DNA from: a virus
Direction: 5' to 3' (one strand)
Virus record (IMG/VR): IMGVR_UViG_3300030103_001879
Span: 1 to 29,713 of that record
DNA: 29,713 nucleotides
This document shows positions 311 to 27,700 of the stretch, one piece after another (the first letter of the stretch is position 1; the number at the start of each line of letters is the position of its first letter). A program made the position numbers and the translations under genes. The notes beneath the pieces are model-generated. The model was not told where the DNA came from, did not search any database, and was given only the letters and a program-made list of their open reading frames with translations.

Positions 311-580
311 GTGAGTTCAGTACGACAAAAGATGGCAGAGACACAGAAGGCTCAAAACAAAGCGGAGGAGAGCGCCCGCCTTGGTGTTGAAGAAGTTGCT
401 CCAGTTGTAGAGCCACCCTCTGAAAAGCCGAAAACTGAAAAAACTGAAAAACTGGAAGCTAAGCCTGCACCTAAGAAAGCGGCTGCGAAGAAAGCACCTG
501 CAAAGAAAGCTGCAGCACCAAAGAAAGCGCCTGCTAAAAAGAAAACAACCACCTCGCCTGCACCGAAAGGAAAGAAGTAA
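311..580 (+). CDS. Small Lys/Ala/Pro-rich histone H1-like protein
   Basis: An 89-residue protein. The N-terminal ~40 residues are charged and helical. The C-terminal half is a low-complexity run of PKKA, AKKA and APKK units, like histone H1 or bacterial H1-like tails. The start is GTG at 311, chosen because AGGAGG at 301-306 (overlapping the upstream stop) lies just before it, whereas the next ATG at 332 is too far away. The stop overlaps the next start (TAATG). A role in binding nucleic acid or packaged DNA is an inference from composition only. Similar basic tails also occur in disordered virion proteins. Confidence 0.75.
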   Translation: MSSVRQKMAETQKAQNKAEESARLGVEEVAPVVEPPSEKPKTEKTEKLEAKPAPKKAAAKKAPAKKAAAPKKAPAKKKTTTSPAPKGKK

Positions 581-780
581 TGCACAACTTTAAGAGACAA
601 ACCAGTTTCCCACAGCCCAAGGTCACTGACAGCAAAGTAAGCGTTAAAGATCAGGGCACTGTTGATTACGCAAAAGAAGAGTCTGTTGCTACCCCTGACG
701 CTCCTAAGCCTTATGGTGCAGGACAGATGCGCGGATTTGGCGCGGCTTTGCGTGGCAAGAAGTTTTCTGGAGTTTACTAG
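580..780 (+). CDS. Small conserved phage protein, function unknown
   Basis: 66 residues, basic, with no clear fold. It has a Gly-rich C-terminus (GAGQMRGFGAALRGKKFSG). The start ATG overlaps the stop of the preceding gene by one base, implying translational coupling. It lies between the probable portal and the head-assembly genes, where marine phages often carry short basic proteins of this type. I do not recognise a named family. The RGFGAA/RGKKF ending resembles short motifs in other small phage virion proteins, so a minor capsid-associated role is possible but unproven. Confidence 0.7.
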   Translation: MHNFKRQTSFPQPKVTDSKVSVKDQGTVDYAKEESVATPDAPKPYGAGQMRGFGAALRGKKFSGVY

Positions 781-789
781 AATACGACC

Positions 790-2841
790 ATGGCTGAGCC
801 TAAGTATCGTACAGTACGAATACCTAAGCCTCGCTCTCGTGGCATTCGGGGGAAGATGGCGTTGCAAAGATGGCGACGCAGTGGTGGCCGTCAAAAGCAA
901 ATACTTAACCCTAAAACGGGCAAGTATGAGCGCGTGCTTTTTGGTGACGCTGGTCAGCGACAGCTGCAGAAGCTTTACCCGACGAAAGAGCGTGGCGAAG
1001 CGATTAAGAAGATAGAGAAGTCTAAGGTTGAACAGTCTAAGCGAAACATAGCAGGCGCAGCTGAAGCCAAAAAGAAAGCGGCAGAGATATCTGCAAAAGG
1101 AAAGAAAGACCGCGAAGCTAAGGCGAAAGCCAAGGCAGATGCAGAAGCAAAAGCGAAAGCAGATGCAGAGGCAAAAGAAAAGAGATCCGCTGCAAAGCCA
1201 AAAGCAGATCCAAAGCCTAAGCTTCCACCACCGCCTGCTCCGCCAAAAGCCCAGCCCAAACCTACGCTTGCGAAGCCAAAAGCTACACGAGGCCGTGGCG
1301 AACCCGACTTACCTATTCCGCCCGTTGCTTTGCCTGCGCCCAAGCCTGCGCCCAAACCTAAGCCTGCACCTAAGCCTGCAGCACCAAAGATTACACAGGC
1401 CCGTGGCGAGCCAGACTTGCCTCTGCCAACGCCAAAACCAGTTGTTCAAGCAAAACCAGAGCCACCACCTCCACCCAAGCGAGTGGTGCCAAAAGCACGG
1501 CCTACACCGCCTGTGGTTGCTGCAGAGGCACCGCCAACTAGAGGCGCTCTAACCCGTGGTGAACCAGAAGCGCCAAAGATTGCGCCACCTGTTCGCGTAG
1601 ACACAACGCCAAAACCAAAGCCTGTTAAAAAAATATCAGAGCTTCCTAAGATTGATCAGGAAAAACTTAACACTGTTTTGAAAGACTTGAAGAATAGAGT
1701 TGTTTCTCCAGATCTAAAAACGCCTACACAAGCTGAGATTGCAGAAGCTGTGACTAAGGCAACTGGCGGCAGGTACACACCTCCAACTTCAAAAGTTGCC
1801 AAGGCTTCACCACCAAAGGCAGAGCCTGTTGCTGTTGCCCCCAAGGCCACTCAAGAACTCGCAACTCCTACAGTTATAGATATTCCCGGCGCTGGACAAG
1901 TTAAGGTTCCAAGCATTTCAACGCCTCCTGCAGAACCTAGAATGAGGATGCGAACAGGAGATTTTCAGGACGCAAACAATAACCAAATCGATGATAGGGA
2001 TGAGCCTAGAACTACACCAGCAGTTACAAGAGTGCCAACGCCAAAAGCGGTATTGGATGCTAATAAAGCTGCAGGCTCACCAGTTGCAGATGTTCTTGCC
2101 GTTGCGAATGCACAAAAGGTTGGAGGTAATCTAAACGCTGATCAAATCAGAAGCCTTATCAATGAAGGCAAGATGGATCCAGATGATGATTTCTTCATAG
2201 ATAGAGAGGGGATTTTTGGGGAGCAAGGTCTCAGGTACAACAAGGGTGTGCCTGAGACTGTTGTAGACCAAATAGTCAAAGACAGACAGCAAGCTGCAGC
2301 TGCTGCTCAACAAGCCTCTGGGCAAACAGGCCCCATATTTTCTGTGCCTGACCCAAAAGCCAAGCCGCTTGCAGAAGTTGCACAGCAGCCTGTAGATGAC
2401 GGTGGCGTGTTTATGCCTATGCCAGGGCAAGATCCTCCGCCAAGAGACCCTGTTACAGAACCTGCGCCTGAGCCACCACCTCCTCCGCAGTTTGTGAACA
2501 TGGATCCTCTGCAAGGATTTAGAGAAACCTATATTCCTACCAACCTAATCGGGCAGGCATATGACCCATCTGTGCGTGATGCGTATACACAACAGATGAT
2601 GCAAGCAGGTGCAAACATACAGTCAGGCGGCTATCCAATGTTCAAGACGCCTACATCTGCGATACCGCAAGTGCAGTTTGGTGGGTATGGCGCACCTATG
2701 CCTATCGCGCCTTTGATGCCATATGCAGGTTTGGCAGCTCCTCAACCACCCCAAACGGCTAGTGGTGCAATTGTTAACCCTGGCACAGGACAAATTGAGC
2801 CTGTTGGTATGGCACCGCCACCTAGATTTCCGGGCATATAA
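790..2841 (+). CDS. Large Pro/Lys/Ala-rich, mostly disordered virion-associated protein
   Basis: 683 residues. Residues 1-60 are strongly basic, with many Arg and the pattern IPKPRSRGIRGK. Residues ~75-140 are a charged Lys/Ala/Glu helix. Residues ~140-290 are a Pro-Lys-Ala low-complexity stretch with three imperfect copies of RGEPDLP or RGEPEAP. Residues ~290-350 may be a small folded helix. Residues 394-405 (DANNNQIDDRDE) look like a calcium-loop, DxNxN...DxxE. The C-terminal ~120 residues are rich in Pro, Gly, Met and Tyr and look structural. It has only a weak ribosome site (GGAG about 18 bases upstream of the ATG). No enzyme motif is visible. The position between portal and co-chaperonin suggests a head or internal protein. 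Confidence 0.75.
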   Translation: MAEPKYRTVRIPKPRSRGIRGKMALQRWRRSGGRQKQILNPKTGKYERVLFGDAGQRQLQKLYPTKERGEAIKKIEKSKVEQSKRNIAGAAEAKKKAAEISAKGKKDREAKAKAKADAEAKAKADAEAKEKRSAAKPKADPKPKLPPPPAPPKAQPKPTLAKPKATRGRGEPDLPIPPVALPAPKPAPKPKPAPKPAAPKITQARGEPDLPLPTPKPVVQAKPEPPPPPKRVVPKARPTPPVVAAEAPPTRGALTRGEPEAPKIAPPVRVDTTPKPKPVKKISELPKIDQEKLNTVLKDLKNRVVSPDLKTPTQAEIAEAVTKATGGRYTPPTSKVAKASPPKAEPVAVAPKATQELATPTVIDIPGAGQVKVPSISTPPAEPRMRMRTGDFQDANNNQIDDRDEPRTTPAVTRVPTPKAVLDANKAAGSPVADVLAVANAQKVGGNLNADQIRSLINEGKMDPDDDFFIDREGIFGEQGLRYNKGVPETVVDQIVKDRQQAAAAAQQASGQTGPIFSVPDPKAKPLAEVAQQPVDDGGVFMPMPGQDPPPRDPVTEPAPEPPPPPQFVNMDPLQGFRETYIPTNLIGQAYDPSVRDAYTQQMMQAGANIQSGGYPMFKTPTSAIPQVQFGGYGAPMPIAPLMPYAGLAAPQPPQTASGAIVNPGTGQIEPVGMAPPPRFPGI

Positions 2842-3042
2842 ATGGATTCAATAGCTCTTGCTTCTTACATGATGAAGAAGTTTGAACAGTATGAGCAGGG
2901 CATTGTGGACTACACAACGTCAGGCAATATCCAAACGATGGAGGATTACAGATTCGCAATGGGTGAGTTATCAATGCTTCGCACCCTGCGTGAAGAAATA
3001 AGAGAAGCGTTGCAGATTGAAGGAGACCCCCTCGATGAGTGA
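2842..3042 (+). CDS. Small helical conserved phage protein
   Basis: 66 residues, acidic and predicted to be all-helical. The ATG follows the preceding stop without any gap, and the 3' end overlaps the co-chaperonin start by 8 bases. Short acidic helical proteins of this length occur near the portal in marine podoviruses, but I cannot name the family. Its tight coupling on both sides suggests it is made together with the head-assembly proteins. Confidence 0.75.
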   Translation: MDSIALASYMMKKFEQYEQGIVDYTTSGNIQTMEDYRFAMGELSMLRTLREEIREALQIEGDPLDE

Positions 3043-3478
3043 TCTATCTTTAGATTCCATCGCAGCAAAACCGTCCGTTGTGGATGCATATGTGAGCGAG
3101 AGCGAAAGGGTTTTAGACCCTGCCGTGCTAGACAAATCTTTGGTTGAAAGAATGCCAGAACCTTCTGGATGGAGACTTTTAGTTCTTCCGTACAAAGGCA
3201 AAGGCGTAACAGATGGTGGTATACAACTTCTTGAGTCCACTGTGAGCAAGGAGAACTTAGCTACATCTGTGTGTTATGTCATGAAAGTCGGCCCCTTGGC
3301 TTATCAAGATTACGATAAGTTTGGCGGAGAGCCATGGTGCAAGAAAGGCGATTGGGTGCTTATCGGTAGATATGCAGGCGCTCGCTTCTCTTTAGAAGAC
3401 GATCATGAGGTTCGCATCATCAATGACGATGAAGTGATTGGCACAATTCTTAATCCAGATGACATTAAGTCTGCATAG
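3035..3478 (+). CDS. GroES-like (Cpn10) co-chaperonin
   Basis: 147 residues. It has an N-terminal extension of about 45 residues, then a Cpn10 beta-barrel signature: RLLVLPYKGKG, a GGI-containing mobile-loop segment (GGIQLLEST), VMKVGPLAY, KFGGEPWCKKGDWVLIGRYAG and a C-terminal RIINDDEVIGTI. The ATG at 3035 is preferred because GAAGGAGA (3019-3026) lies 8 bases upstream. A TTG at 3017 would add six residues but sits on that ribosome site. In cells, Cpn10 caps GroEL. Phage versions such as T4 gp31 adapt the host chaperonin to fold the capsid protein. Its place directly before the scaffold and capsid genes fits that role. The first GG hydrophobic tripeptide in the loop is the expected GroEL contact. 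Confidence 0.92.
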   Translation: MSDLSLDSIAAKPSVVDAYVSESERVLDPAVLDKSLVERMPEPSGWRLLVLPYKGKGVTDGGIQLLESTVSKENLATSVCYVMKVGPLAYQDYDKFGGEPWCKKGDWVLIGRYAGARFSLEDDHEVRIINDDEVIGTILNPDDIKSA

Positions 3479-5649: not shown

Positions 5650-6558
5650 ATGGCTATTTCAAGAGCACAATTAGCCAAAGAGCTAGAGCCTGGTCTCAAC
5701 GCTTTATTTGGCATGGAGTATGCGCGTTACGAAAACCAACACGCTGAGATCTTTGAAACTGAAGCTTCAGACAGAGCGTTTGAAGAAGAAGTTCTGATCG
5801 TTGGATTTGGCAACGCGCGCGATAAGTCTGAAGGACAAAGTGTTGGTTACGACCAAGCTTCTGAAGGCTTTACCGCACGATATACGCACGAGACCGTGGC
5901 GCTCGCTTTTGCGCTCACCGAGGAAGCGGTGGAAGATAATTTGTATGACCGCCTTGGCGCGCGCTATACAAAGGCGCTGGCTCGTAGCATGGCACACACT
6001 AAGCAAGTGAAAGCTGCAAACGTATTGAACAATGCGTTCTCAAGCTCTTTCACTGGCGGTGATGGCAAGTCACTTGTGGCTACCGATCACCCGCTTGCTG
6101 GTGGTGGCACGTTCTCAAATCGTCCTTCAGCTTTTGCTGATTTGAACGAAACGTCTTTGGAAAATGCATTGATCAGCATTTCAACTTTTGTTGATGATCG
6201 AAACATGATCTTGGCTCTGCAAGGAACCAAGCTCGTTGTTCCGCCTCAACTTCAGTTCGTAGCGGATCGATTGTTGGAAACCCCCGGACGAGTGGAAACG
6301 GCTGATAACGACATCAACTCAATCAGAAACATGGGTCTGCTGCCTGAAGGCTATGCAGTCAACCATTTCTTGACTGACACTGATGCGTTTTACATCCTGA
6401 CGGACTGCCCTGACGGCTTTAAGCACTTTGAGCGAAGCCCGATTGCCACTTCCATGGAAGGTGATTTCAACACTGGTAACGTGAGATACAAGGCCAGGGA
6501 GCGATACAGCTTTGGCTTCAGTAATCCACGCTGCGTGTTCGCATCACAAGGCGCTTAA
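5650..6558 (+). CDS. Major capsid protein (HK97-fold type)
   Basis: 302 residues, close to the usual size for compact HK97-fold capsid proteins without a long delta domain. It opens AISRAQLAKELEPGLNALFG, a form I recognise from marine phage capsid proteins. It contains an N-arm with EEEVLIVGFG, an E-loop-like GYDQASEGFTARYTHETV, helix-rich P-domain segments (YTKALARSMAHTKQ), a LVPPQL...ADRLL segment, and an A-domain with DTDAFYILTDCPDGFKHF ending GNVRYKARERYSFGF. AGGAGG at 5637-5642 is an exceptionally strong ribosome site. The gene is followed at once by a palindrome and an intrinsic terminator, as expected for the most highly expressed gene of the module. Confidence 0.9.
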   Translation: MAISRAQLAKELEPGLNALFGMEYARYENQHAEIFETEASDRAFEEEVLIVGFGNARDKSEGQSVGYDQASEGFTARYTHETVALAFALTEEAVEDNLYDRLGARYTKALARSMAHTKQVKAANVLNNAFSSSFTGGDGKSLVATDHPLAGGGTFSNRPSAFADLNETSLENALISISTFVDDRNMILALQGTKLVVPPQLQFVADRLLETPGRVETADNDINSIRNMGLLPEGYAVNHFLTDTDAFYILTDCPDGFKHFERSPIATSMEGDFNTGNVRYKARERYSFGFSNPRCVFASQGA

Positions 6559-10026: not shown

Positions 10027-10036
10027 GATCTAACGT

Positions 10037-10930
10037 GTGGCGAATGTTACTGGCTGGGGTAGAGGCACTTGGGGTGAGGGTGCATGGGGCGAAGAGGCCC
10101 CAGTACTTGTCACGGGTGTCTCAGGCACTTCAGCAGTTGGTTCAGTCACAATATCTGCAGCTGCCAGCACGTCAGTTACAGGCGTTGCAGGAACGAGTGC
10201 GGTTGGATCAGTCACGGTTGCAGCAGCCGCAACCACATCTGTCACAGGTGTTTCAGGAACGGGTGAGGTTGGCTCCGTCACTGTTACAGCGGGTGCAAGC
10301 GTCGTTCCTACAGGCGTATCGGGGACTGGGGCGGTTGGTTCCGTATCAATATCAGGAGCGGCCAGCACCTCAGTTACAGGAGTCTCTGGAACAAGCGCAG
10401 TTGGCTCAGTTACCGTTGCAGCAGCGGCTAACACAGATGTTACAGGAGTTGCAGGAACAGGCGGTGTCGGTTCTGTCACTGTTTCTGCAGCGGCCACAGC
10501 AGCTGTTACAGGCAATGTTGGAACGTCTGCGATTGGTTCAATCACAGTCGATGCGGCAAGCACAGCCGTTGTCACAGGCGTTTCTGGAACGGCGTCAGTT
10601 GGATCGATCACCACAGATGCAGCTGCGAATGTCGCAGTTGTTGGGGTTGAAGGAACGTCTGCGCTTGGCTCTATATCAGTATCTTGCGACAACAACATCA
10701 GCGTTACGGGACTTGAAGGTACTTCAGCGATTGGAACTGTCGTTGCGACTGGAGCGGTTGATGTTGTTCCTACAGGTGTGTCTGCTACTGGCTTGGTTGG
10801 CGGCGCATTGGTTTGGGGAAAAATTATTCCAGGTCAAGATTCTAACTGGCAAAATGTTGATGACAGTCAAACACCAAGCTGGTCAAATATTGATGACAGT
10901 CAAACACCGAATTGGGAAGAGGTAGCTTAA
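10037..10930 (+). CDS. Repeat-built tail/virion protein with ten 22-residue repeats
   Basis: 297 residues from a GTG start (weak AGGA site about 9 bases upstream). Residues 7-18 carry W-G-x-G-x repeated with tryptophans at 7, 12 and 17. Residues 25-244 are ten full copies of a 22-residue unit, consensus VTGVSGTSAVGSVTVxAAAxx, and an eleventh partial copy follows. The C-terminus has two copies of an 11-residue (N/S)W-x-N-(V/I)DDSQTP unit. The repeats would form a regular stack of short beta strands, suiting a fibre or spike shaft. It directly precedes the tail fibre gene, so a tail appendage part is likely. Other reading frames across the repeats are also open and are treated as shadows. Confidence 0.78.
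   Translation: MANVTGWGRGTWGEGAWGEEAPVLVTGVSGTSAVGSVTISAAASTSVTGVAGTSAVGSVTVAAAATTSVTGVSGTGEVGSVTVTAGASVVPTGVSGTGAVGSVSISGAASTSVTGVSGTSAVGSVTVAAAANTDVTGVAGTGGVGSVTVSAAATAAVTGNVGTSAIGSITVDAASTAVVTGVSGTASVGSITTDAAANVAVVGVEGTSALGSISVSCDNNISVTGLEGTSAIGTVVATGAVDVVPTGVSATGLVGGALVWGKIIPGQDSNWQNVDDSQTPSWSNIDDSQTPNWEEVA
10109..10768 (+). repeat. Ten tandem degenerate 66-bp repeats
   Basis: Ten in-frame 66-base units, each encoding 22 residues beginning VTG or PTG and centred on GTxAVGSVxV. Codons vary freely between copies (synonymous changes are common), so the array is old or under protein-level selection. Two of the other frames also stay open over much of the array. Confidence 0.88.
10857..10908 (+). 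repeat. Two 19-bp direct repeats at the 3' end of the repeat gene
   Basis: TTGATGACAGTCAAACACC occurs at 10857-10875 and again at 10890-10908, 33 bases apart. Each encodes the DDSQTP core of the C-terminal 11-residue units. The identity at DNA level suggests a recent duplication, compared with the diverged 66-base array upstream. Confidence 0.85.
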
Positions 10931-17135: not shown

Positions 17136-19024
17136 TGCCTTTGCAAAAGTTTATCTTCAATCCTGGCATCAACAAAGAAGGCACAGACTACACTGCAGAA
17201 GGCGGGTGGTTTGACGGCAACTTGGTGCGCTTTCGCAAAGGTTTGCCTGAGAAGATAGGCGGTTGGCAAAAATATATTCAGTCTTCTTACGAGGGCACAG
17301 GTAGAAAGCTTCATGGATGGGTAGACCTAGACGGCACAAAGCTTCTTGGTTTAGGCACAAGGTTCAAGCTATACATCCAAGAGGGAACCACCTACAACGA
17401 TGTCACACCTATAAGGTCAACCACCAGTGCGGGTGATGTGACTTTTGCTGCAACTGATGGCTCAAGCACCATAACAGTCACTGATTCTGGACACGGCGCA
17501 GTAGAAGGAGACTTTGTAACTTTTTCTGGAGCAGCAAGTTTAGGTGGCAACATAGTCGCTGCAGTGCTTAATCAAGAGTACCAAATAGTTTCTGTGCCAA
17601 GCACAAGCACATTCACCATAACTGCCAAAGACACAAGTGGCGCTACTGTCACAGCTAACTCAAGCGACAGTGGCAATGGTGGCAGCAGCGTGGTTGGGGC
17701 CTATCAAATCAACTCTGGCCTAGACGTGTTTGTGGATGGCACGGGTTGGGGTGTAGGCGCTTGGAGTGCTGGGGCTTGGGGGTCTACGACTTCAATCACA
17801 GATTCTAATCAGTTGCGCCTTTGGTCTATGGATAACTTTGGTGAAGACTTAATATCCAACCCAAGAGGCGGAAGCATCTATTACTGGGATAAAACGAATG
17901 GTTTGACCACTCGTTCTGTGCAGTTGTCCGAAAGAACTGGCGCAAACTTAGTGCCAACAAAGGGACTACAGGTAATCGTTTCAGACATAGATAGGCACGT
18001 TCTTGTGCTTGGCGCTGACCCAATCAACGCTGCAGGAACTGCTAGAACTGGCTCGATTGACCCTTTGCTGATTGCTTTCTCTGATCAAGAGAATGCAAAT
18101 GAGTTTGAGCCTAAGTCTACGAACACTGCGGGATCTCTTAGATGTTCTGCAGGGAGCGAGATCATAGGTGGCTTGCGAGCCAGGCAAGAGACTTTGATTT
18201 GGACAGACGTTGCTCTGTACAGCTTGCAATTTATTGGGCCACCTCTGACTTTTGGATTGAACCTGATCAACGAAGGTGTCAGCTTGATTGGTCCAAATGG
18301 CGCTGTGAACACGCCATCTGGTGTATTTTGGATGGACAAGAAAGGATTCTATTCATACGGAGGTAACGTCACTCCGCTGCCATGTTCAGTAAAGTCTTAT
18401 GTTTTTGATGACTTTAATGAAAGCCAAGCTTTTCAGGTATTCGCTTTCTTAAACAAGCAGTTCAATGAAGTGGGTTGGTTCTATTGTTCAGCTGCTTCAA
18501 CATCGATAGATAGGTTTGTTGCTTATAACTATGAAGAGCAAACTTGGAATATAGGTCAGCTATCTAGAACAGCATGGTTAGATGAAGGCATCGTTGCTTT
18601 CCCTCGAGCCGCTGGCAAGTCAAGCTCATCGCACTTTCTGTTTCAACACGAGACTGGGCACGACGATGATGGTAGCCCTATGACCAACGTGTTTATCGAA
18701 TCTGCCGACTTTGATATCGGAGACGGGGAAGAGTTTCAGTTTATTCGTCGCATGATCCCAGATATTAAATTTACTGGTACAGGTGGCAGTGACCAGGTTA
18801 TCAACGTTGTCATGAAGACTCGCAATTTCCCCGGTAGCGATCTAACCACAGATCAAACCACTGCGATTACCGGATCAACGACCAAAGTAGATACAAGGGC
18901 TAGAGGCCGACAAGCTGCTGTCAGGTTTGAATCTGACGATGATGCAGCTACAGATGCTCAGCTAGGCGTTGGTTTTAGGGTTGGCGGAACTCGTTTAGAT
19001 ATACAGCCTAATGGCCGCAGATGA
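17135..19024 (+). CDS. P22 gp10-like tail hub / DNA-stabilisation protein
   Basis: 629 residues. It opens PLQKFIFNPGINKEGTDYTAEGGWFDGNLVRFR, the typical start of podovirus tail accessory proteins of the P22 gp10 type ('F.PG......Y..EG.W.D...VRFR.G.PEKIGGW'). Residues ~100-190 hold an inserted beta domain with HGAVEGDFVTFSGA and TFTITAKD. Residues 205-216 hold W-G-V-G-A-W-S-A-G-A-W-G. The later region (LLIAFSDQENANEFEP, ALYSLQFIGPP, WMDKKGFYSYGG, YNYEEQTWNIG) reads as a beta-propeller-like core. It would close the tail and hold packaged DNA in place. TAATG junction with the lysozyme. Confidence 0.8.
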   Translation: MPLQKFIFNPGINKEGTDYTAEGGWFDGNLVRFRKGLPEKIGGWQKYIQSSYEGTGRKLHGWVDLDGTKLLGLGTRFKLYIQEGTTYNDVTPIRSTTSAGDVTFAATDGSSTITVTDSGHGAVEGDFVTFSGAASLGGNIVAAVLNQEYQIVSVPSTSTFTITAKDTSGATVTANSSDSGNGGSSVVGAYQINSGLDVFVDGTGWGVGAWSAGAWGSTTSITDSNQLRLWSMDNFGEDLISNPRGGSIYYWDKTNGLTTRSVQLSERTGANLVPTKGLQVIVSDIDRHVLVLGADPINAAGTARTGSIDPLLIAFSDQENANEFEPKSTNTAGSLRCSAGSEIIGGLRARQETLIWTDVALYSLQFIGPPLTFGLNLINEGVSLIGPNGAVNTPSGVFWMDKKGFYSYGGNVTPLPCSVKSYVFDDFNESQAFQVFAFLNKQFNEVGWFYCSAASTSIDRFVAYNYEEQTWNIGQLSRTAWLDEGIVAFPRAAGKSSSSHFLFQHETGHDDDGSPMTNVFIESADFDIGDGEEFQFIRRMIPDIKFTGTGGSDQVINVVMKTRNFPGSDLTTDQTTAITGSTTKVDTRARGRQAAVRFESDDDAATDAQLGVGFRVGGTRLDIQPNGRR

Positions 19025-19365
19025 GTAAGTTATTAAGAGGCCGACTCCCGCTGATCAACAACGGTGATTCTGTTGACGGAACCACGTTCAACAGGACTGT
19101 GCGCCTTCTTGAACTTAGTCTAGATGCGTTTGACCCAGACGCAACGCCGCAGTTTACGCGCGAGAAAAGAGACACTTTGAAATTTAATACAGGTGATTTA
19201 ATCTGGAATACAACCATCAATACTTTGCAAGTGTTTGATGGTAACAACTGGATTAGTTTATCGCAGGAGTTGCCGTACACGACTGACCCCCTTGAAGCTC
19301 AAGGACAAGTTGGTTCTGTTCAGGTGATAAACGAGGGATCAATAGTAGTGAGTGTAGGTTCATGA
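19021..19365 (+). CDS. Small tail/fibre-associated protein
   Basis: 114 residues. N-terminal helix (LRGRLPLINNGDSVDGTTFNR, RLLELSLDAF), then a beta segment TREKRDTLKFNTGDLIWNTTINTLQVFDGNNWISL. That 'F..GD.IWNT..N.LQV.DG..W..L' motif is a recurrent module of phage tail fibres. The start overlaps the preceding stop (ATGA). It directly follows the gp10-like gene, so it may be a short tail-tip or attachment component. The function is inferred from that motif and position. Confidence 0.72.
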   Translation: MSKLLRGRLPLINNGDSVDGTTFNRTVRLLELSLDAFDPDATPQFTREKRDTLKFNTGDLIWNTTINTLQVFDGNNWISLSQELPYTTDPLEAQGQVGSVQVINEGSIVVSVGS

Positions 19366-19610
19366 CAAAACTATGTCCGAGAGGCAAAGCTGCTGCCAAA
19401 CGTAAGTTCAAGGTTTACCCTTCAGCTTATGCAAATGCTTACGCAAGCAAAATCTGTGCAGGCAAGATCAGAGATCCGTCTGGCAAGAAGCGTAAAGACT
19501 TCAAAGGCCCGAAGCCCAAAAGCAGCGGAACGTCATCTGCAGCGAAGAAAATAAGAAGTGTGAGAGGCGGGGGTTTTATATCCAGAAGAGCTAGATTGAT
19601 AGACAGATGA
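19362..19610 (+). CDS. Small basic conserved phage protein (YPSAYAN type)
   Basis: 82 residues, strongly basic. The core LCPRGKAAAKRKFKVYPSAYANAYASKICAGK is a highly conserved phage block: short form 'LCP+G.AAAK.KF.VYPSAYAN.YA...C.GK'. I believe it is catalogued as DUF5872, to be checked. Two cysteines flank it. The C-terminus is KKIRSVRGGGFISRRARL. No enzyme motif. Composition suggests nucleic-acid binding or an internal virion protein. It is the first of three similar-style genes in a row, all with overlapping starts and stops. Confidence 0.8.
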   Translation: MTKLCPRGKAAAKRKFKVYPSAYANAYASKICAGKIRDPSGKKRKDFKGPKPKSSGTSSAAKKIRSVRGGGFISRRARLIDR

Positions 19611-19948
19611 GTTTAAAAGAATGGTTCGGCAAAGGCCCAAAAGGTGATTGGGTAGACATTGGAGCACCGAAGAAAGGCGGAAAGTTTCAGAAGTGTGGCC
19701 GTGCCAAGGCTTCAGGATCTAAGCGTAAGTACCCGAAGTGCGTGCCTAGGGCTAAAGCTAAGCAGATGACTGAAGGGGAGCGCCGTAGCGCCGTTAAGCG
19801 CAAGAGAGCAAAACCACAAGGCGTAGGTGGAAAACCTACTAACGTTAAGACCATTCTAAAGAAAGCTAGTGGTGGTGAAGTACGACGCAACCACAGAGGG
19901 TGTGGCGCTGTTATGTCTGATCGGCGCAAGAAGACAAGGTACTCCTGA
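19607..19948 (+). CDS. Small basic conserved phage protein (KGPKGDWVDIGAPKK type)
   Basis: 113 residues, very basic. It has the conserved opening SLKEWFGKGPKGDWVDIGAP, the Cys-containing KFQKCGR and KYPKCVPRAKAKQMT blocks, then RRSAVKRKRAKPQG, and ends SGGEVRRNHRGCGAVMSDRRKK. The same 'DWVDIGAP...KCGR....KYPKC' block is common in marine and other phages. Four cysteines in two pairs could bind zinc. No function is known to me. The ATGA overlap with both the preceding and following genes indicates coordinated synthesis. Confidence 0.8.
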   Translation: MSLKEWFGKGPKGDWVDIGAPKKGGKFQKCGRAKASGSKRKYPKCVPRAKAKQMTEGERRSAVKRKRAKPQGVGGKPTNVKTILKKASGGEVRRNHRGCGAVMSDRRKKTRYS

Positions 19949-20274
19949 TGTTTAGAAGGTATGCAGAAGAGTTTTCTAATGGTGGTGCTGTTAAAAAACG
20001 TCGCCGCGATAAGATGCCAAAGCGCAACAAGAAGAACTTTCGCCCTACAAAACAAGGCGCTGGCATGACAGAAGCTGGTGTAAAAGCATATCGAAAAGCT
20101 AATCCTGGTAGTAAACTCCAGACTGCTGTTACGGAGGACAAGCCTACAGGTAAGCGTGCAGCGCGCAGGAAGTCATTTTGCGCAAGATCTGCTGGTCAAA
20201 TGAAGAAGTTTCCAAAAGCAGCAAAAGATCCTAACTCTAGGTTGAGACAGGCTAGACGAAGATGGAAGTGTTAA
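19948..20274 (+). CDS. Small basic conserved phage protein (SFCARSAGQM type)
   Basis: 108 residues, very basic. The N-terminus carries FSNGGAVKKRRRDK, followed by KQGAGMTEAGVKAYRKANPG, KRAARRKSFCARSAGQMKKF and DPNSRLRQARRRWKC. The last blocks are strikingly conserved in many phage genomes; I believe the family is DUF6321, to be checked. Two cysteines, the last one being the final residue. It could bind DNA inside the capsid. The start overlaps the previous stop (TGATG), and an 17-base gap follows before the next gene. Confidence 0.8.
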   Translation: MFRRYAEEFSNGGAVKKRRRDKMPKRNKKNFRPTKQGAGMTEAGVKAYRKANPGSKLQTAVTEDKPTGKRAARRKSFCARSAGQMKKFPKAAKDPNSRLRQARRRWKC

Positions 20275-20291
20275 GCAGGTGAGTAACTGAT

Positions 20292-21500
20292 ATGGGAATG
20301 AAGAAATCTGAAAAAGAAATAGTTGCTCGACAAAGAGAGCTTGGAGAGGTTACCTCTGGAGCTTTGCAGGATTTTAAAACATCTGGTGGCTTTCAACGCT
20401 TCGCGCCTGGGCCGCTTCAAACTGCAATGCCTCAACTGCAAGGAAGCGCAACATTTCTAGGTGGCGCACCAAGCCCGTATGCGCAATCTTTAGCTTATCA
20501 AGCACTCCCTGGCATGACATACGCAAACAGGCCGGGTACCACCACAGCATTCTATCCACAAGCTAACGTAGCTCCTCCTACAGCTGCAGCACCTCCCGCG
20601 ACTGGAAGTACTTTTCAAAGATCTGAGCCAGTGATGGACTCAGGGAGAGTCAGTGATCCCTCTGATATCGAAAGAGAGAATGAGTTACTAATCGCTGAGC
20701 TTGTTGATCAAGCACGCGAGATGGATTTTGAGCGACAAGATGAGCTACGCGATGCAGTTAGAGATTTTGAAATAGCTCAAGACATTCGACGCGGGCCTTT
20801 TCAAATAGAAGATTACGATGACATTTTTGATAACGAAAACTTGTTTGTATCAAGAAATGCGCCTGGAGGAATACTGAGTCTTCAAGAACTCAGGAACCTT
20901 CAAGACTCTATTGGTGATAACGTCATGATGGCCATGGCTGATGGAGGCATAGCTAGGTTACCCGTTGAAATGAACGCAGGTGGAACACTTGCTGCTCCAG
21001 GCCAAACTTTAGGCGGCACTCCAGCTGGCGGATTAATGAGCCTTGATATGGGTGGAGTTGGTGGCGCTGGAGTTGGCATGAATCCATCATCGCCTTCACC
21101 TGCTGATAAGCCTGCAGATACAAAATCATCTTCACAAAGACAAAGCCCATACGCCAACATGACTAGAGAGCAGCTGATAGCTTTATTGGAAAAAGATAAA
21201 AAAGCTGATATAGGCAGCGAGCTTAAAAATTTAAGTCAAGCGTTAATGCCTCAAATATTGGCAGATGGAGGAGAGGCTTTTCCTCGAATGAACGGCCCAA
21301 TATCTGGGCCAGGTACAGAGACAAGCGATGATATCCCCGCAATGCTTAGTGATGGCGAGTTTGTCGTAAACGCTAAAGCAGTCCGTGGCGTCGGTAAATT
21401 AAACGGCGCAGGTAAATCAAAATCAGAACAACGCCGTGAGGGCGCTCGCATGATGTATGCCTTGCAGAAGGCAGGCGAGCAAGCGATGAGGAAAGCTTAA
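20292..21500 (+). CDS. Internal/structural virion protein with C-terminal 'PAMLSDGEFVV' motif
   Basis: 402 residues. The N-terminal 30 residues are charged and helical. Residues ~35-110 are Pro/Ala/Thr/Gly-rich. Residues ~120-175 form an acidic helix (ERENELLIAELVDQAREMDFERQ). Residues ~215-290 are Gly/Met/Pro-rich and disordered. The C-terminus has PISGPGTETSDDIPAMLSDGEF, VVNAKAVRGVG and a final helix. The 'GPGT.TSD.IPAMLSDGEFVV' motif is widespread in phage tail and internal proteins. It is the first of four long genes at the place of the T7 internal core/ejection proteins. AGGTGA about 9 bases upstream supports the ATG. Confidence 0.68.
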   Translation: MGMKKSEKEIVARQRELGEVTSGALQDFKTSGGFQRFAPGPLQTAMPQLQGSATFLGGAPSPYAQSLAYQALPGMTYANRPGTTTAFYPQANVAPPTAAAPPATGSTFQRSEPVMDSGRVSDPSDIERENELLIAELVDQAREMDFERQDELRDAVRDFEIAQDIRRGPFQIEDYDDIFDNENLFVSRNAPGGILSLQELRNLQDSIGDNVMMAMADGGIARLPVEMNAGGTLAAPGQTLGGTPAGGLMSLDMGGVGGAGVGMNPSSPSPADKPADTKSSSQRQSPYANMTREQLIALLEKDKKADIGSELKNLSQALMPQILADGGEAFPRMNGPISGPGTETSDDIPAMLSDGEFVVNAKAVRGVGKLNGAGKSKSEQRREGARMMYALQKAGEQAMRKA

Positions 21501-23548
21501 TGGCTAGTACAGGTGTAACAGATACCAGCATACCCGTTATTCTGCCTCAAGCAGGGCAGACATTTGCAGATCCAGCAATGGAGTTGGCGACAAGAAATAT
21601 TCTTGCGTCTTACTTCGGCACTGGGCAACCGGGCGATCTTGGCCTCATGGGTCAACCGATACCGATACCAATACAACAAGTAGCTGGCCTATCTCCTTTA
21701 GAAGTTCAAGCGCGTAATGCTGCTCAAGGTTTGGGTGGCTTTGGTGCACAACTCGCAGAAGCACAAGATTTATTTAGGCGTGCTGGTCAAGGATTTGATC
21801 CACGCTCCGCTGGCTTGTTTGCAGACCCACGAGCGCGTGAATTATACGAACAAAGCTTGGGCGTTTTTGACCCAGCCACAGGCGAAAGATTTGTAGATCA
21901 AAGAGCAAGATCTATGATGGAAGGTGCAGCTGGCGATATTAGAGCGGCTGGAGCAGGCATTCCTTCTATCATAGGTGGCGCACAAACAGGAATGTCTGAT
22001 GCAGAGAGGGCCATAGCGGAGGCAAGCGGAACTGCGAGGGCAGGAATAACAGATGCGGCAAGAGGCATTACTGGAGAAGTTGCTGGCGCACAAACAGGCG
22101 CTGCAGAAGCGGCACAGAGAGCGCGTGCACAAACAGAAATGGCTGGTCGAGATCTTCGCTCTGCTGGCCAGATGGGCCGTGCAGCTGCATTACAGGGAAT
22201 AGCTGGTCTTACTGGCACTGGTGAACAGTTCGATCCTGCAGGCATTGCTAGATTTCAAGACCCCTTCACTCAACAAGTTATTGATGCGCAACAAGCAGAG
22301 ATTGCAAGGCTAGGCGAACAACAGAAACGAGATGCACGCGCACAGCAGATACGAGCAGGTGCGTTTGGTGGATCTCGTGGCGCTATACAAGAAGCTGAGA
22401 TTGGTCGAAATGTATTGCAGCAACAGGCTAAGACAGGCGCTGAGTTGCGATCACAAGGATTTCAACAAGCAGCACAGCAAGCGCAACAAGCTTTTGAGCA
22501 GGCGCAAGCACGCCGTCAGCAGGCCGCACAACTTACTGGCTCATTGGGTCAAGCAGGCGCAGGAACTTCTCTACAGGCCGCACAGCAAGCAGGCCAGCTT
22601 GGCTTGAGTGCAGAGCAGTTGGCTCAACGAGGTGCGCTTGAAAGCGGTCAGCTTGGTCTCTCAGGACAACAAGGCATTGGATCATTGCTTGGTCAGGCGG
22701 GACAAATGGGTATGCAGGCAGGGCGCGACATTGGCTCTCTTGCTCAACAGCGTGGCGCGCTTGGTTTGCAGGGAGCACAAGCACAAGCAGGACTTGCGGG
22801 TCAAAGAGCAGATATCGCTCGAGGCATAGGTCAGCTAGGGCTTCAAGGTCAGCAACTTGGTGCAGATGTTTTTGGACAGCAGATGGGCAGAACCGCGCAA
22901 GCGGCTCAAGGTCTTGGAGGCCTTACGCAAAACCAATTCGGCACCGCATTACAGGCGTTTGGCGCAGGCACGGGAGCACAGCGTGCAGCCGCATCAGGTA
23001 TCGCAGGACTTGGCCAGCAAGGTCAACAAATGCTGGGCACACAGATAAGCACTCTTGGCCAACTTGGTCAGCAAGGTCGTGGCATACAGCAAGCGGGTCT
23101 TGATGCGCAGTACAAGGCAGCTACTCAGATGGCTGATGAGCCGTTCATGAGGTTGCAACGTGGCCAAGCACTGCTGCAAGGTGGTGCACCGTTCATGCCT
23201 CAGTACACCAGTGGGTTTGGCATGGGTCAGAATCAAGGGCAGGCTCAAACCAGAGGCAGTACTGCAGCTCAAGCGTTAAACGCAGCAGGCACTATTGCCA
23301 GTATTGTGGCCGCATCCGACATCCGCCTGAAAGAGAATGTAATGAAGATTGATGAAGTCCAGCCAGGCGTAGGCTGGTACACATGGGATTGGAATGACAC
23401 GGCTAAGGCTATGGGTATTGATGACCCAACTGAAGGTGTGATTGCACAAGAGCTTAAGGAAGTTGACCCAAGCGCAGTCATTATGGGCGACGATGGTTAC
23501 TACAGCGTAGATTATTCAAGAGTAAACCGTAGCCGTGAAGCGATCTAA
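21500..23548 (+). CDS. Gln/Ala/Gly-rich internal virion protein with C-terminal S74 domain
   Basis: 682 residues. Residues 1-90 are conserved-looking (VILPQAGQTF, MELATRNILASYF, QQVAGLSPLEVQARN). Residues ~130-600 are a long Gln/Ala/Gly/Leu-rich region with many LGQQG, QQAQQ and AGQLGL units, helical and repetitive. Residues 606-682 form an S74 domain: SDIRLKENVMKIDEV with Ser606 and Lys611, WDWND, TEGVIAQELKEVDPSAVI and YYSVDYSRV, ending EAI. S74 domains normally trim trimeric fibres and spikes. Here one caps a protein whose position and composition resemble an ejection protein. The last 14 bases overlap the next gene. Confidence 0.75.
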   Translation: MASTGVTDTSIPVILPQAGQTFADPAMELATRNILASYFGTGQPGDLGLMGQPIPIPIQQVAGLSPLEVQARNAAQGLGGFGAQLAEAQDLFRRAGQGFDPRSAGLFADPRARELYEQSLGVFDPATGERFVDQRARSMMEGAAGDIRAAGAGIPSIIGGAQTGMSDAERAIAEASGTARAGITDAARGITGEVAGAQTGAAEAAQRARAQTEMAGRDLRSAGQMGRAAALQGIAGLTGTGEQFDPAGIARFQDPFTQQVIDAQQAEIARLGEQQKRDARAQQIRAGAFGGSRGAIQEAEIGRNVLQQQAKTGAELRSQGFQQAAQQAQQAFEQAQARRQQAAQLTGSLGQAGAGTSLQAAQQAGQLGLSAEQLAQRGALESGQLGLSGQQGIGSLLGQAGQMGMQAGRDIGSLAQQRGALGLQGAQAQAGLAGQRADIARGIGQLGLQGQQLGADVFGQQMGRTAQAAQGLGGLTQNQFGTALQAFGAGTGAQRAAASGIAGLGQQGQQMLGTQISTLGQLGQQGRGIQQAGLDAQYKAATQMADEPFMRLQRGQALLQGGAPFMPQYTSGFGMGQNQGQAQTRGSTAAQALNAAGTIASIVAASDIRLKENVMKIDEVQPGVGWYTWDWNDTAKAMGIDDPTEGVIAQELKEVDPSAVIMGDDGYYSVDYSRVNRSREAI

Positions 23549-24782
23549 GCGCGAAAGAAAGATCAGCAAAGTGATGGGAGAGTTCAAAGATGGCTCACTC
23601 AAGTCAGGCGGTTCGGGTAGAAAAGTAACAAATCCAAAGCAAGCTATAGCCATTGCTTTGTCGGAGGCAGAGGGAATGAATCAAGGTGGAATGATGTACA
23701 ACCAAATCATGCAACGACCAATGTTTCAAACGCCTCAACAGCGCCAAGGCTTGGGAATCATGGCAGGCGTTGCTCCTGTGCGTGGGTATGCAGATGGTGG
23801 TGAAGCTGAAGAGATTGCAGTAACAGCAGAAAGTCCAGAAGAGTTAGATATAAAACTTTTTGGTGAAAGCGGTGTTTTGTTCGATACCGATTCTCCTATA
23901 TCAAGCACGTTGATGGCATTGACGATACCTATTGGAGGCGGTCTTATTGGGCTTACGGCTCGTGGCTTGATGGCAGCTAGAAAAGCTGCGCAAGTTGCAC
24001 AAGCATCAAGAAAAGCAGCTTTGGCGGCAGGCCAGAGATCTGTTGGTGTAACTCCACAGCTAGCAGCTAAAGCGCCAAGTCCTCCTCCACCTCCAAGCAT
24101 CGCTGCTCGTGTCTCAGGAGTACCTGCAGCCGCTGCTGGTGCAATAAAACGCAATCCTGGCAAGACGATTTTAGGTGGCCTTGGTCTTGCAGGGCTTTCC
24201 ACCATTGGTGAAAATGAGCCAACAACAGATGAGCCTCCTGCAGATACGTCCACTGATGACACTGGTGGAGGTGGTGAAGGTGCTGGCAATCAACAATCAG
24301 GCATCATGAAGTTTTTGTTTGGTTCAGATGGTATTGGCGGCGAACCAGGCGCTGTTGGCAAGGCTGTGGACTATTTGGCTGACCCCAAAACCAGATATGC
24401 ACTCGCTCGTGCTGCGGAGTCACGCCCTGGTGTCGTAGATAGAAACTTCTTTACCGATTTCGCGCTTGGCCAAGCAGAGTACGAGGCCGCTCAACAACAG
24501 AATCAAACTGCTTTCATGAGAAACTTTGATACTTTAAGGAAAATATATCCAGAAAGTGTTACAGATCAAGAGATTGCTGAAATTCTTTTAGATGATTCAG
24601 AAAATCCAGAAGATAAGTTTTTAACTTTGTTTAAGGCAGCTATAGATCCAACAACTCAGACAGTTAGCTTACCTATAGCTCAAGCTTTGGCTGCTGCTAT
24701 ACCTGGCTATGAGTTACCTGACGATTTTGAAAAAGTTTTAGCTCAACAAACACCTGTTTCCGCAACAGTTCCAGCTGAATGA
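23535..24782 (+). CDS. DUF6496-headed virion protein with internal hydrophobic segment
   Basis: 415 residues from GTG 23535, kept because the conserved block starts there: KRERKISKVMGEFKDGSLKSG then VTNPKQAIAIALSEA, which I recognise as DUF6496. An ATG at 23574 would cut into it. The head is followed by GYADGGEAEEIAV, a hydrophobic segment at about residues 118-145 (ISSTLMALTIPIGGGLIGLTA), a Pro-rich linker with PSPPPPPS, and an acidic Gly-rich linker (~231-255). The C-terminal helical part holds RYALARAAESRPGV and AQALAAAIPGYELP. It overlaps both neighbours. An ejected or membrane-interacting virion protein is plausible. Enzyme motifs were not seen. Confidence 0.65.
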   Translation: MKRSKRERKISKVMGEFKDGSLKSGGSGRKVTNPKQAIAIALSEAEGMNQGGMMYNQIMQRPMFQTPQQRQGLGIMAGVAPVRGYADGGEAEEIAVTAESPEELDIKLFGESGVLFDTDSPISSTLMALTIPIGGGLIGLTARGLMAARKAAQVAQASRKAALAAGQRSVGVTPQLAAKAPSPPPPPSIAARVSGVPAAAAGAIKRNPGKTILGGLGLAGLSTIGENEPTTDEPPADTSTDDTGGGGEGAGNQQSGIMKFLFGSDGIGGEPGAVGKAVDYLADPKTRYALARAAESRPGVVDRNFFTDFALGQAEYEAAQQQNQTAFMRNFDTLRKIYPESVTDQEIAEILLDDSENPEDKFLTLFKAAIDPTTQTVSLPIAQALAAAIPGYELPDDFEKVLAQQTPVSATVPAE

Positions 24783-27700
24783 GAGTAGTTGTACCAGATG
24801 GCAGTGGTCGGGTTATTGAGGTATTAACAGATGATCCAATCAAAGCTTCACAAAAAGCCAAAGAATGGGCGCAAGAAAACCCAGCTGTAGAACGTGGTGC
24901 TCAACTGGGTCAAGAAGACGTTTCTGCTTTTGGTGATGTCCTGCGTGGCGTGGGTGCTGGTTTAGTTGGCGCAGCTGAAGGAATAACAACTCTTCCGATA
25001 GAAATAATAGACTCAATAACAAGTTCTGATGAAAACAGCGCGCAAGTAGTCAGAGAGTTTTTCAATCGATACAAGCCTGAAACGTCTACAGGTATAGGAG
25101 AAGCTTCTAAATTTATAACTCAATTTGCCGTCCCCGGTGGTGCTGCATACAGAGCAGCTAGAGGATTAAGTGGTGTTGGGAAGGTTGGTGCTATAGCTGG
25201 TGCCGATATAGCTGCCACGACTCCAGACGTAGAAACCATTGGAGATTTCTTAGATGCTGGCCCCACAAAAAGAATTAATCTTGAGGATTTAGAAGGCGCT
25301 GAGCTTGCTCAAGCCACATTAGCTAATAGATTAAAAGTTGCAGCAGAGGGTGCCGCAGTTGTTTTTGGGGTTCCAGCCGCTGCAAGAATTGGTGTTCAAG
25401 GCATTAGATCTGGAGCAGAAGCTCTAGGTAGAACAGATGTAGTTAAAGAGGCCGCTAGATCTATACCTTTTCTTAAAGCAGATCCAGAGACTGCTTTCAA
25501 GACAGCGGCCCCAAAAGCGGAAATTGAAGATCCAAGCTTTCTTCAAGCTAAAGTTGAAGGTTTAAAAAAGCTAGGCACCAGATATCTGACTAATCAAGGG
25601 AGATTGCCAGATGAGTTTTCTGCTGGATACGAACAAGCAAGATTACAAGCTGTATCTGCAGCTAACTCTGGAGCCAGGCAAGCTGTTGAGAAACTAGACA
25701 ATGCTTTGAGTTTCATTAATAAAAATGAAGGTCTATTTAACGGTCAAAACAAAAGCACAATTTTAAATGCCTTTAACGACTATTTGTTTCCAGAAAGTAA
25801 GGGTGGCTTATCTAGAGAAGCTGTTAAACAAAGAGCAGAAAATATATTGAAGTCTGTAGACGAAACTATAGCAGCGCAAAAACCTAAAACCTTTTTTGGT
25901 AAAAACAAAGACTTAAGTCTTTTTCAAGGTGCTCAACAAGTGAGAGCATCGATTGATGATCTTAGCAAAAACATTCAAGACATACGAAGAGATGAACTAT
26001 TAGACCCCCTGCAACAACAGGGAATAATTCAAAGGATTGGCGATAACTTAGGCTTTTATGGTCGAAGGTTATATAGAGCATCTAATGAAACAAACTACCA
26101 ACCAAACGCTGAGCAAAGACGCGCGGCTATGGATGAATTAAAACGACAGCAGCTACAGTTAAACCCAGAGAAGCCTTTGAGCGATTCAATGGCTAATTCA
26201 ATATTGAATGACACTTTAATTAAAATGGGCAACAACAATGCTAACGTTAGTCCTAAAGATCTTTTTGATGATTCAACTCTATCTGGTATCGCTCAAGGGC
26301 TTTTGAAGGGTAGAAGGTTAGACAATCTTCCAGCAGTTAGAGATTTCCTAGGAGAGTACACTGGCGCTAGAGATGTCATCGGTAGAGTTGACACAAAGAT
26401 TATTAGAGCTAGAGATGTTGGAGAGCAAGAGACAGGATTAAAAACAAAGATTGTAGAGACAGTTGATCAAATGGCTAAGTCAGTGGCCAAGTCTAATTAC
26501 TACAAAAATCTATCTGAGCACAATAAATCACTCCCTGCTAATGCAAAATACTTTTATGACGAACCTCCTGTTGACGGGAAAATATACAAAAGAGTTGGAG
26601 ATAAAGCGCCAGATGCTCCAGTTACTGAAGAAGACATAGTCCGTTTTGGGCCTTTAGCTGGTAAATATGTTCTTCCTGAACACTTAGAAGCCTTCGAGAA
26701 CGCTGGGCAAGTGTTTAATTTAGCAAACACCATACCTTTGTACGCAACTTTCTTAGGCATGAAAGGTATGTCACAGGTTATGAAGACTGTTTATAGCCCA
26801 ATCACTCAAATAAGAAACGCTACGACAGCAGCTTTTTATTTATTGCAAAATGGAAATTTACCTAGCTCAGATTCGCTCGCAAAAGGCGTTTCTTCAGTTC
26901 TCACAAACATAAACCAAAGGCTCAGTCGAGTAGGCGATTTTGATATAACCACAGGCACTGGCAAAATTATATCTTCTCAAAACGCCACTAAAGCTGATTT
27001 AGAAAGGTTTTATAATGAAAAGGTTGACCTAGGAGTTGTTAACACCAACGCGAAGATAGGTGAATTTGAGTCTCTTCTCAATGACGCTGTTGATGCAAAA
27101 CAAGCTATGCCGGGCGTTGCAAAAAAAGCATTTCAATTTGTTAAGAATCAACAAAACAATTTTGCTGCAAAGCTGTATCAAGGGTCTGATGATGTTTGGA
27201 AGATATCATCACACGAGTTAGAACTAGGTAAATTACAAAAGGTATTTAAAAACAACGTCAATGCAAGGTTGCCAGTTAGCGATTCAAATAATTACCTAAC
27301 ACTAGAAAAGTTAAATCTAGGGCCAGTGTTTTCTAAAGCGCAACTCAATCAGTTTAGTGATAACGTTCTTATAGATGCATTCAAAAGAACAGACCCCAAA
27401 GGGTTTACCTTAAACCTAGATGAGTTTGCAAAGTTAAACAAAGAGAAGAAAGTAGACTTCTTAACTGAAGCTATACTTAAAAGAGAAGCAGCTGAGATCG
27501 TAAAAGATACAGTGCCAAACTATGCTCGAGTGCCTGAAGCAATCAAAAGATTGCGTCAACTACCTTTAGGCAACTTCATTGCATTTCCTGCAGAAATTAT
27601 CAGAACTAGTGGAAATGTTTTGCAAAGAGCAATCAAGGAATTGGCTAGTGAGTCTCCTGAGCTAAGAGAGATTGGCATGAAGCGGCTTACTGGAATGATG

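Follow-up and report, generated by a model that had tools for sequence, protein, structure and literature searches.

The stretch of DNA considered here, called the window, covers bases 1–29713 of the 46,502-base virus record IMGVR_UViG_3300030103_001879 in IMG/VR. It begins with the end of a portal gene, followed by genes for an 89-residue histone H1-like protein, a 66-residue protein (p66b), a 683-residue Pro-rich protein and a further 66-residue protein, and then by those for GroES, a scaffold-like protein and the major capsid protein (Table 1). A preliminary description, made from the sequence alone, placed the 89- and 683-residue proteins between the portal and the capsid assembly genes and regarded them as an unusual disordered, basic set. 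Both reading frames and their neighbours are confirmed, and relatives show that the set is conserved. The ratio of nonsynonymous to synonymous substitution (dN/dS), calculated by the Nei-Gojobori method between the window genes and their copies in relatives, is 0.13–0.18 for the 89-residue protein, 0.08–0.18 for p66b and 0.25–0.31 for the 683-residue protein, showing that the three are real genes and not chance frames. The early observation stands and even understates the case; the gene at 580–780 was passed over. Its interpretation is partly supported.

P66b is the most widely conserved of the three genes in the slot. It is best conserved at its carboxyl terminus, and 22 aligned copies are invariant at G26, G46, G48, G52, A56, G59, F62 and G64. 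A hidden Markov model (HMM) of the last columns of the p66b alignment matched other proteins, with the significant matches at their very ends, and the shared peptide, or tag, has the consensus RG.GAA..G.KF.G. IMG/VR was scanned for the tag with two DNA patterns, neither of which contains a stop codon. For pattern 1 (GKGK.RG.GAA), 95 loci were read, and 93 of 94 open reading frames (ORFs) with the motif carry it exactly 21 residues before the stop; most of these copies lie shortly behind the portal. The reading for pattern 2 (CRG.GAA..G.KF) comprised 134 loci, 112 from that pattern and 22 left over from pattern 1, and all 113 ORFs with the motif continue for just 3 or 4 residues after it. With a relaxed motif applied to all fetched loci, 291 of 291 occurrences lie no more than 5 residues from the carboxyl terminus, and none was found in reversed ORFs. 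Many of the fetched loci overlap or repeat, so the number of distinct tagged proteins is 226. Their bodies fall into 74 unrelated clusters by 3-mer overlap and are mostly basic, with a median length of 104.5 residues and a median net charge of +0.11 per residue. The same tag is thus found on many different basic proteins in related phages, so that it may act as a sorting signal. In the codons for its fixed Gly and Ala residues the third base varies freely, indicating that the peptide is under selection and ruling out a copied DNA repeat.

Nearly all the tagged genes have portal, GroES or adaptor genes as neighbours. For 221 of the 226 distinct proteins, TerL, portal, GroES, capsid or adaptor/tube genes are in view in the locus, and no landmark is in view for the other 5. 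Most tagged genes occupy the interval from portal to GroES/scaffold (99) or from TerL to portal (47). Of the remainder, 20 follow the portal and precede the capsid gene, 17 adjoin adaptor/tube genes and 16 lie upstream of the portal; a further 11 lie upstream of GroES or capsid in loci where the portal is not in view, and the last 11 come after the capsid gene, no more than 2.5 kb from the adaptor. Some loci encode several tagged proteins.

Two further observations concern the tagged proteins. Basic proteins encoded between TerL and portal in two loci (L004:280-1838 and L013:799-2294) end in PRGVG.A.RGYGKA(L/M)(K/R), a second type of carboxyl terminus, similar to the tag but without KF. Loops that resemble those of dockerins or EF-hands (DLTGDGKVTxxD, DKNKDGKISGED) recur among the tagged proteins, for instance in L249, L283, L239 and L255. 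Such calcium-like loops are present in 5 of the 74 clusters, whereas shuffles gave a mean of 0.22; the excess is suggestive.

The content of the slot was scored in relatives. The capsid protein fetched 80 loci, of which 35 had portal and GroES in view and a distinct GroES. The slot holds an H1-like gene in 17 of these, a tagged gene in 20 and a long Pro-rich gene (296–985 residues) in 10, and 31 of the 35 have an H1-like gene, a tagged gene or both. A broader set of 95 distinct loci takes in tag-fetched loci and public genomes and is hence partly selected for the tag; it contains 21 H1-like, 71 tagged and 17 long Pro-rich genes. The long Pro-rich slot protein is therefore not an oddity confined to the window. 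The order portal, H1-like, long protein, GroES, for which the preliminary description proposed a search, occurs in relatives with the 66-residue genes interspersed. In a contig binned as Sphingobacteriales (L344), whose capsid is 96% identical, the genes follow each other as in the window: portal, H1-like, tagged, long Pro-rich, 66-residue, GroES.

The likeness of the 89-residue protein to H1 is compositional only. The tail is rich in Lys, Ala and Pro, as in histone H1 and bacterial H1-like proteins, but no Pfam or PHROG family matches it at E 0.01, and the one Pfam match, at E 4.4, is at chance level. A rule requiring SS close to the start together with a basic tail was passed by 32 of 8,798 ORFs, all of which, nested frames aside, sit behind the portal; the rule was written after the first examples had been seen and the alignment comprises 23 hand-picked members, so this result is descriptive and not an independent test.

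The 683-residue protein was described earlier as very long, disordered and basic. It contains 113 P, 90 A, 68 K, 39 R, 35 D and 35 E, and with a net charge of +37 it is chiefly Pro-rich and only mildly basic. In the AlphaFold2 model, based on 10 sequences, the mean predicted local distance difference test score (pLDDT) is 51 and 419 of 683 residues score below 50. The model supports disorder over residues ~135–683, most of which are predicted to be unstructured, but not over residues 1–133, where a folded segment (1–62) and a helix extending to residue 133 are predicted. The dN/dS is 0.06–0.13 in the first 90 residues and 0.12–0.18 in the last ~118, showing that both ends are held more tightly than the middle. 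Relatives of the protein are encoded in 17 IMG/VR loci, three of which (L015–L017) match around the calcium-like loop only. In the alignment the amino terminus and the C-terminal block are constant, and modules between them are gained, lost and moved; a GDGKVTF module, for example, is doubled in L003 and L004. The PYAG(M/L) C-terminal block is common to long Pro-rich proteins that otherwise cannot be aligned (window, L034, L035, L036, L045, L152, L206, L344 and others), and GGPAYFTP.GY near the amino terminus unites another set.

Two motifs singled out in the preliminary description belong to the variable middle. The three RGEP copies are indeed present, starting at residues 169, 205 and 256, but they are found in some members only and are not a family feature. 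The calcium-loop-like element exists at residue 394 but is not conserved: the DANNN(G/Q/R)IDDRDE loop is missing from L002–L004, lies elsewhere in L007, L008 and L010–L014, and in some relatives is nearer the C-terminal block. An EF-hand function was rejected, since the loop is unconserved, lacks Gly6 in the window and has no EF-hand match in Pfam.

The family of the 683-residue protein recurs in IMG/VR and was not found in INPHARED, PHROGs or Pfam. Searches of INPHARED by tblastn found no meaningful match for the whole protein, for its N-terminal or C-terminal part, for the region of the calcium loop, for the GDGKVTF module, for the 345-residue protein of L004 or for the tag; one query returned a single phage, represented by two records, at E 9. 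Such negatives carry little weight when the query is short or of low complexity, and the tag query missed the tagged proteins of Pelagibacter phage HTVC023P that the HMM found. The model of the 683-residue protein retrieved nothing from PDB or BFVD at E ≤ 0.001 in a fold search. A likeness to LptE over residues 54–142 (two PDB chains, E 0.005–0.007), which covers the Lys/Ala helix, was taken as composition.

Three other long proteins deserve mention. Two long Pro-rich slot proteins, at L036:4567-6762 (also in L127, apparently the same contig) and L041:844-2673, contain a Hint/intein-like domain; Hom_end_hint is above the Pfam cut-off, and the domain ends in VVAHNK or VVSHNK. Judging from this domain, these proteins may cut or splice themselves. 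A 1006-residue low-complexity protein at L015:5470-8490, the same in L016 and L017, shares the DFQDANNNGIDDRDE element, has repeats in its second half and ends in a Lys/Pro-rich, H1-like stretch. Its gene sits after the capsid gene and ahead of an adaptor homologue.

Table 1. Features at the left end of the window (positions in the window; aa, amino acids).
Feature	Position	Strand	Remark
Portal protein, C-terminal end (cut by contig start)	3..302	+	90% identity to end of L004 portal
H1-like Lys/Ala/Pro-rich protein, 89 aa, GTG start	311..580	+	conserved N-terminus (SSVRxKMA...), Lys-rich tail
p66b, 66-aa basic protein	580..780	+	carries the C-terminal tag
C-terminal tag RGFGAALRGKKFSGVY	730..777	+	21-aa query places tag region at 715-777
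Long Pro-rich protein, 683 aa, ATG start	790..2841	+	
Predicted folded N-terminal mini-domain, basic, residues 1-62	790..975	+	AlphaFold2 pLDDT block means 74-88
Predicted single long helix, Lys/Ala/Glu-rich, residues 66-133	985..1188	+	AlphaFold2
Pro-rich stretch with three RGEP copies (1294-1305, 1402-1413, 1555-1566)	1294..1566	+	unconserved among relatives
DANNNQIDDRDE, calcium-loop-like DxNxNxxxDxxE element, residue 394	1969..2004	+	Q where relatives have G or R
Conserved C-terminal block (FVNMDP...GGYG.P...PYAGL...)	2491..2781	+	PYAG part common to very divergent long proteins
66-aa protein, after long Pro-rich gene and before GroES	2842..3042	+	phrog_32603 (E 0.0018)
GroES-like co-chaperonin	3038..3478	+	phrog_3188 (4.7e-14); PF00166
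Scaffold-like protein, 352 aa	3486..4544	+	phrog_28737; function inferred from position
Major capsid protein, Mu gpT-like	5650..6558	+	phrog_371, PF25209, 21 public relatives

The portal assignment follows from the identity to the end of the L004 portal, which itself matches the PHROG portal family phrog_1216 (5.8e-49). The predicted fold of a homologue matches podophage portals such as those of PaP3, Pan3, N4, T7 and P22; a sequence search of PDB gave no match for portal or capsid. Public relatives of the scaffold-like protein are labelled 'kinesin-like', and two proteins of phrog_36003 and phrog_37556 separate its gene from the capsid gene. Elsewhere in the window, 10035–10925 and 10037–10930 are long overlapping frames on the same strand (296 and 297 residues), neither with a PHROG match, and two proteins encoded late in the structural module, at 23535–24782 (415 residues) and 24779–28954 (1391 residues), likewise have none.

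Homologous portal, GroES, scaffold-like and gpT-like capsid genes stand in the order of the structural module of HTVC023P-type phages. According to passages of PMC9599517, these phages are podoviruses with GroES among 13 core genes and with eight unannotated ones, and CRP-901/902 share their structural module, as stated in part of PMC10149686. HTVC023P itself has the order portal, variable small genes, GroES, scaffold-like and capsid, with a capsid 70% identical over 98%. It encodes two tagged proteins, gp32, a 245-residue basic protein behind the portal, and gp51 further down, whereas no H1-like or long Pro-rich protein was found in its slot. The gene for gp51 (MN698239 32480-32863) is far from the portal. 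A 63-residue gene lies shortly behind the portal in HTVC027P (L018:8967-9158) and 023Pt_psg01 (L021:11127-11318). The two 63-residue proteins share a different carboxyl terminus (RGTKRM...ATWY / KGTRRM...ATWY), and its sequence suggests that another anchor type may exist.

A small basic protein beside the portal, as expected of channel proteins like T7 gp7.3, is encoded at 580–780. T7 genes 6.7 and 7.3 also adjoin the portal and encode small, mildly basic, low-complexity proteins. In the T7 virion, as described in sections of PMC11784390, gp7.3 is ordered only in its C-terminal loop (residues 84–98), which is anchored to two subunits of the nozzle where this meets the adaptor; density surrounding the end of the DNA has been attributed to the mostly positive N-terminus of gp7.3, and residues 2–15 of gp6.7 ring the portal barrel. 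A basic body that ends in the tag corresponds to the gp7.3 pattern, and the H1-like protein, in which conservation is mainly N-terminal, to that of gp6.7. There are differences as well. The T7 genes lie just before the portal, whereas the window genes follow it; here one tag is found on many unrelated proteins, also beside adaptor genes; and a long Pro-rich third member is present.

With chances that we put at about even, the genes form a cassette next to the portal that encodes anchored, disordered proteins of the virion working like the T7 gp6.7/gp7.3 pair. In each protein a short conserved anchor would be joined to a flexible part that is charged or Pro-rich. The tag would hold p66b in place, most likely in the channel formed by portal, adaptor and nozzle, with the basic part lying against the end of the DNA; the anchor of the H1-like protein would be its conserved N-terminus, with the Lys-rich tail on the DNA. 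The long protein, probably an internal or ejected component, would be fixed by its N-terminal mini-domain and C-terminal block, leaving the variable, disordered middle free. The recurrent anchor-like ends and the portal/adaptor neighbourhood point to a position at the portal-neck rather than to the bulk DNA condensation considered in the preliminary description. A wider proposal, which we advance tentatively and rate at somewhat less than an even chance, is that a single portable C-terminal peptide forms a sorting code in a large group of marine phages. Any small basic protein that acquired the tag would be fitted at the portal-neck, or inside the head, and delivered along with the genome. The cassette would be a fast-changing cargo bay whose sole fixed part is the tag, and a second, larger type of cargo would be the long Pro-rich protein, whose ends are fixed and whose swappable middle sometimes includes a Hint domain.

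Several findings weigh against the cassette. Four of the 35 capsid-fetched loci (L055, L061, L066, L092) have neither an H1-like nor a tagged slot gene, and the long Pro-rich protein, present in only 10, is therefore not essential to this phage group. Loci from cellular assemblies show a tagged gene in 5 of 24, and most have none in view. Among 8 cultured or public relatives only HTVC023P has the tag; none was seen in the fetched parts of HTVC027P, 023Pt_psg01, DSL-LC04, Pag-Yong1, CRP-902, QDWS535 and RW. The tag HMM (24 columns) had no match on the ORFs of T7 18000–24500, and although so short a profile cannot exclude remote homology, the parallel with gp7.3 is one of functional analogy only. 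The in-frame fusion of portal and p66b at L121:2371-4962 (minus strand, 863 residues) speaks for the cassette, but it is known from one contig only and may reflect a deletion made in assembly; in its AlphaFold model the whole p66b part has pLDDT <50 and is not docked, the tail having no homologous rows. Two alignments that placed p66b rows across the portal body were not used. Virion proteomics for any cassette member was not found.

The tag could instead serve loading of the head, binding either the scaffold or the capsid shell on its inner face and packing the tagged basic proteins as internal proteins. The strict C-terminal position and the swappable bodies are what a loading peptide would show, and several tagged proteins occur per locus. 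There are precedents: as set out in parts of PMC7355545, encapsulin cargo-loading peptides are C-terminal sequences of ~10 residues that bind the lumen of an HK97-fold shell, and there too a short conserved peptide ends unrelated proteins encoded near the shell gene; in T4 a ~10-residue signal routes internal proteins into the head (passages of PMC9958956). The T4 signal is N-terminal, however, and the encapsulin parallel is one of description, not of sequence, the tagged bodies here being low-complexity and basic rather than enzymes and encoded beside portal/adaptor genes. That clustering favours the neck, and no head protease was identified in the window; we consider head loading unlikely, though worth keeping in mind. 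Less probable again is that the proteins aid assembly of portal, scaffold or adaptor together with the phage GroES and are absent from the mature virion. Disordered proteins often serve as assembly factors and the genes lie between portal and GroES/scaffold, but Lys-rich tails would not be needed and a scaffold-like protein is already present. That protein, in the usual place before the capsid gene, also makes the flexible scaffold suggested earlier for the long protein less likely; a classic scaffold role was rejected, the long protein having no family match and preceding GroES.

The basic, H1-like composition could also suit late intracellular DNA-binding or host-takeover proteins with no structural role, a possibility to which we give little credence in view of the linkage to portal/adaptor genes in most loci and the shared terminal tag. 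Hardly credible is a neutral, drifting low-complexity ORF as the origin of the long protein. Its middle is variable and module-shuffled and most relatives lack it, but the dN/dS values, of the whole and above all of the ends, speak for selection, and the C-terminal block is conserved in members that otherwise cannot be aligned.

Anchored small virion proteins, as favoured here, are already known; a portable tag is not described in the literature searched. In the open-licence literature no description of the motif or of a portal-side cassette was found, which does not show its absence from print, and among the matches listed for the motif string no paper was, by its title, on phage proteins. 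Passages of PMC9599517, PMC10149686, PMC12753301 and PMC11288001 on HTVC023P-type phages mention neither tag nor cassette.

Few parts of the phage particle are as poorly understood as the small disordered proteins of the virion. With a conserved terminal tag they could be found by sequence in uncultured phages, and gp32 and gp51 of HTVC023P on Pelagibacter HTCC1062 offer a cultured test case. The tag could be used to direct delivery into the heads or necks of phages, and it would broaden the idea of T7 gp7.3, which has so far applied to a single protein of one type of phage, to a general attachment of proteins at the DNA gate.

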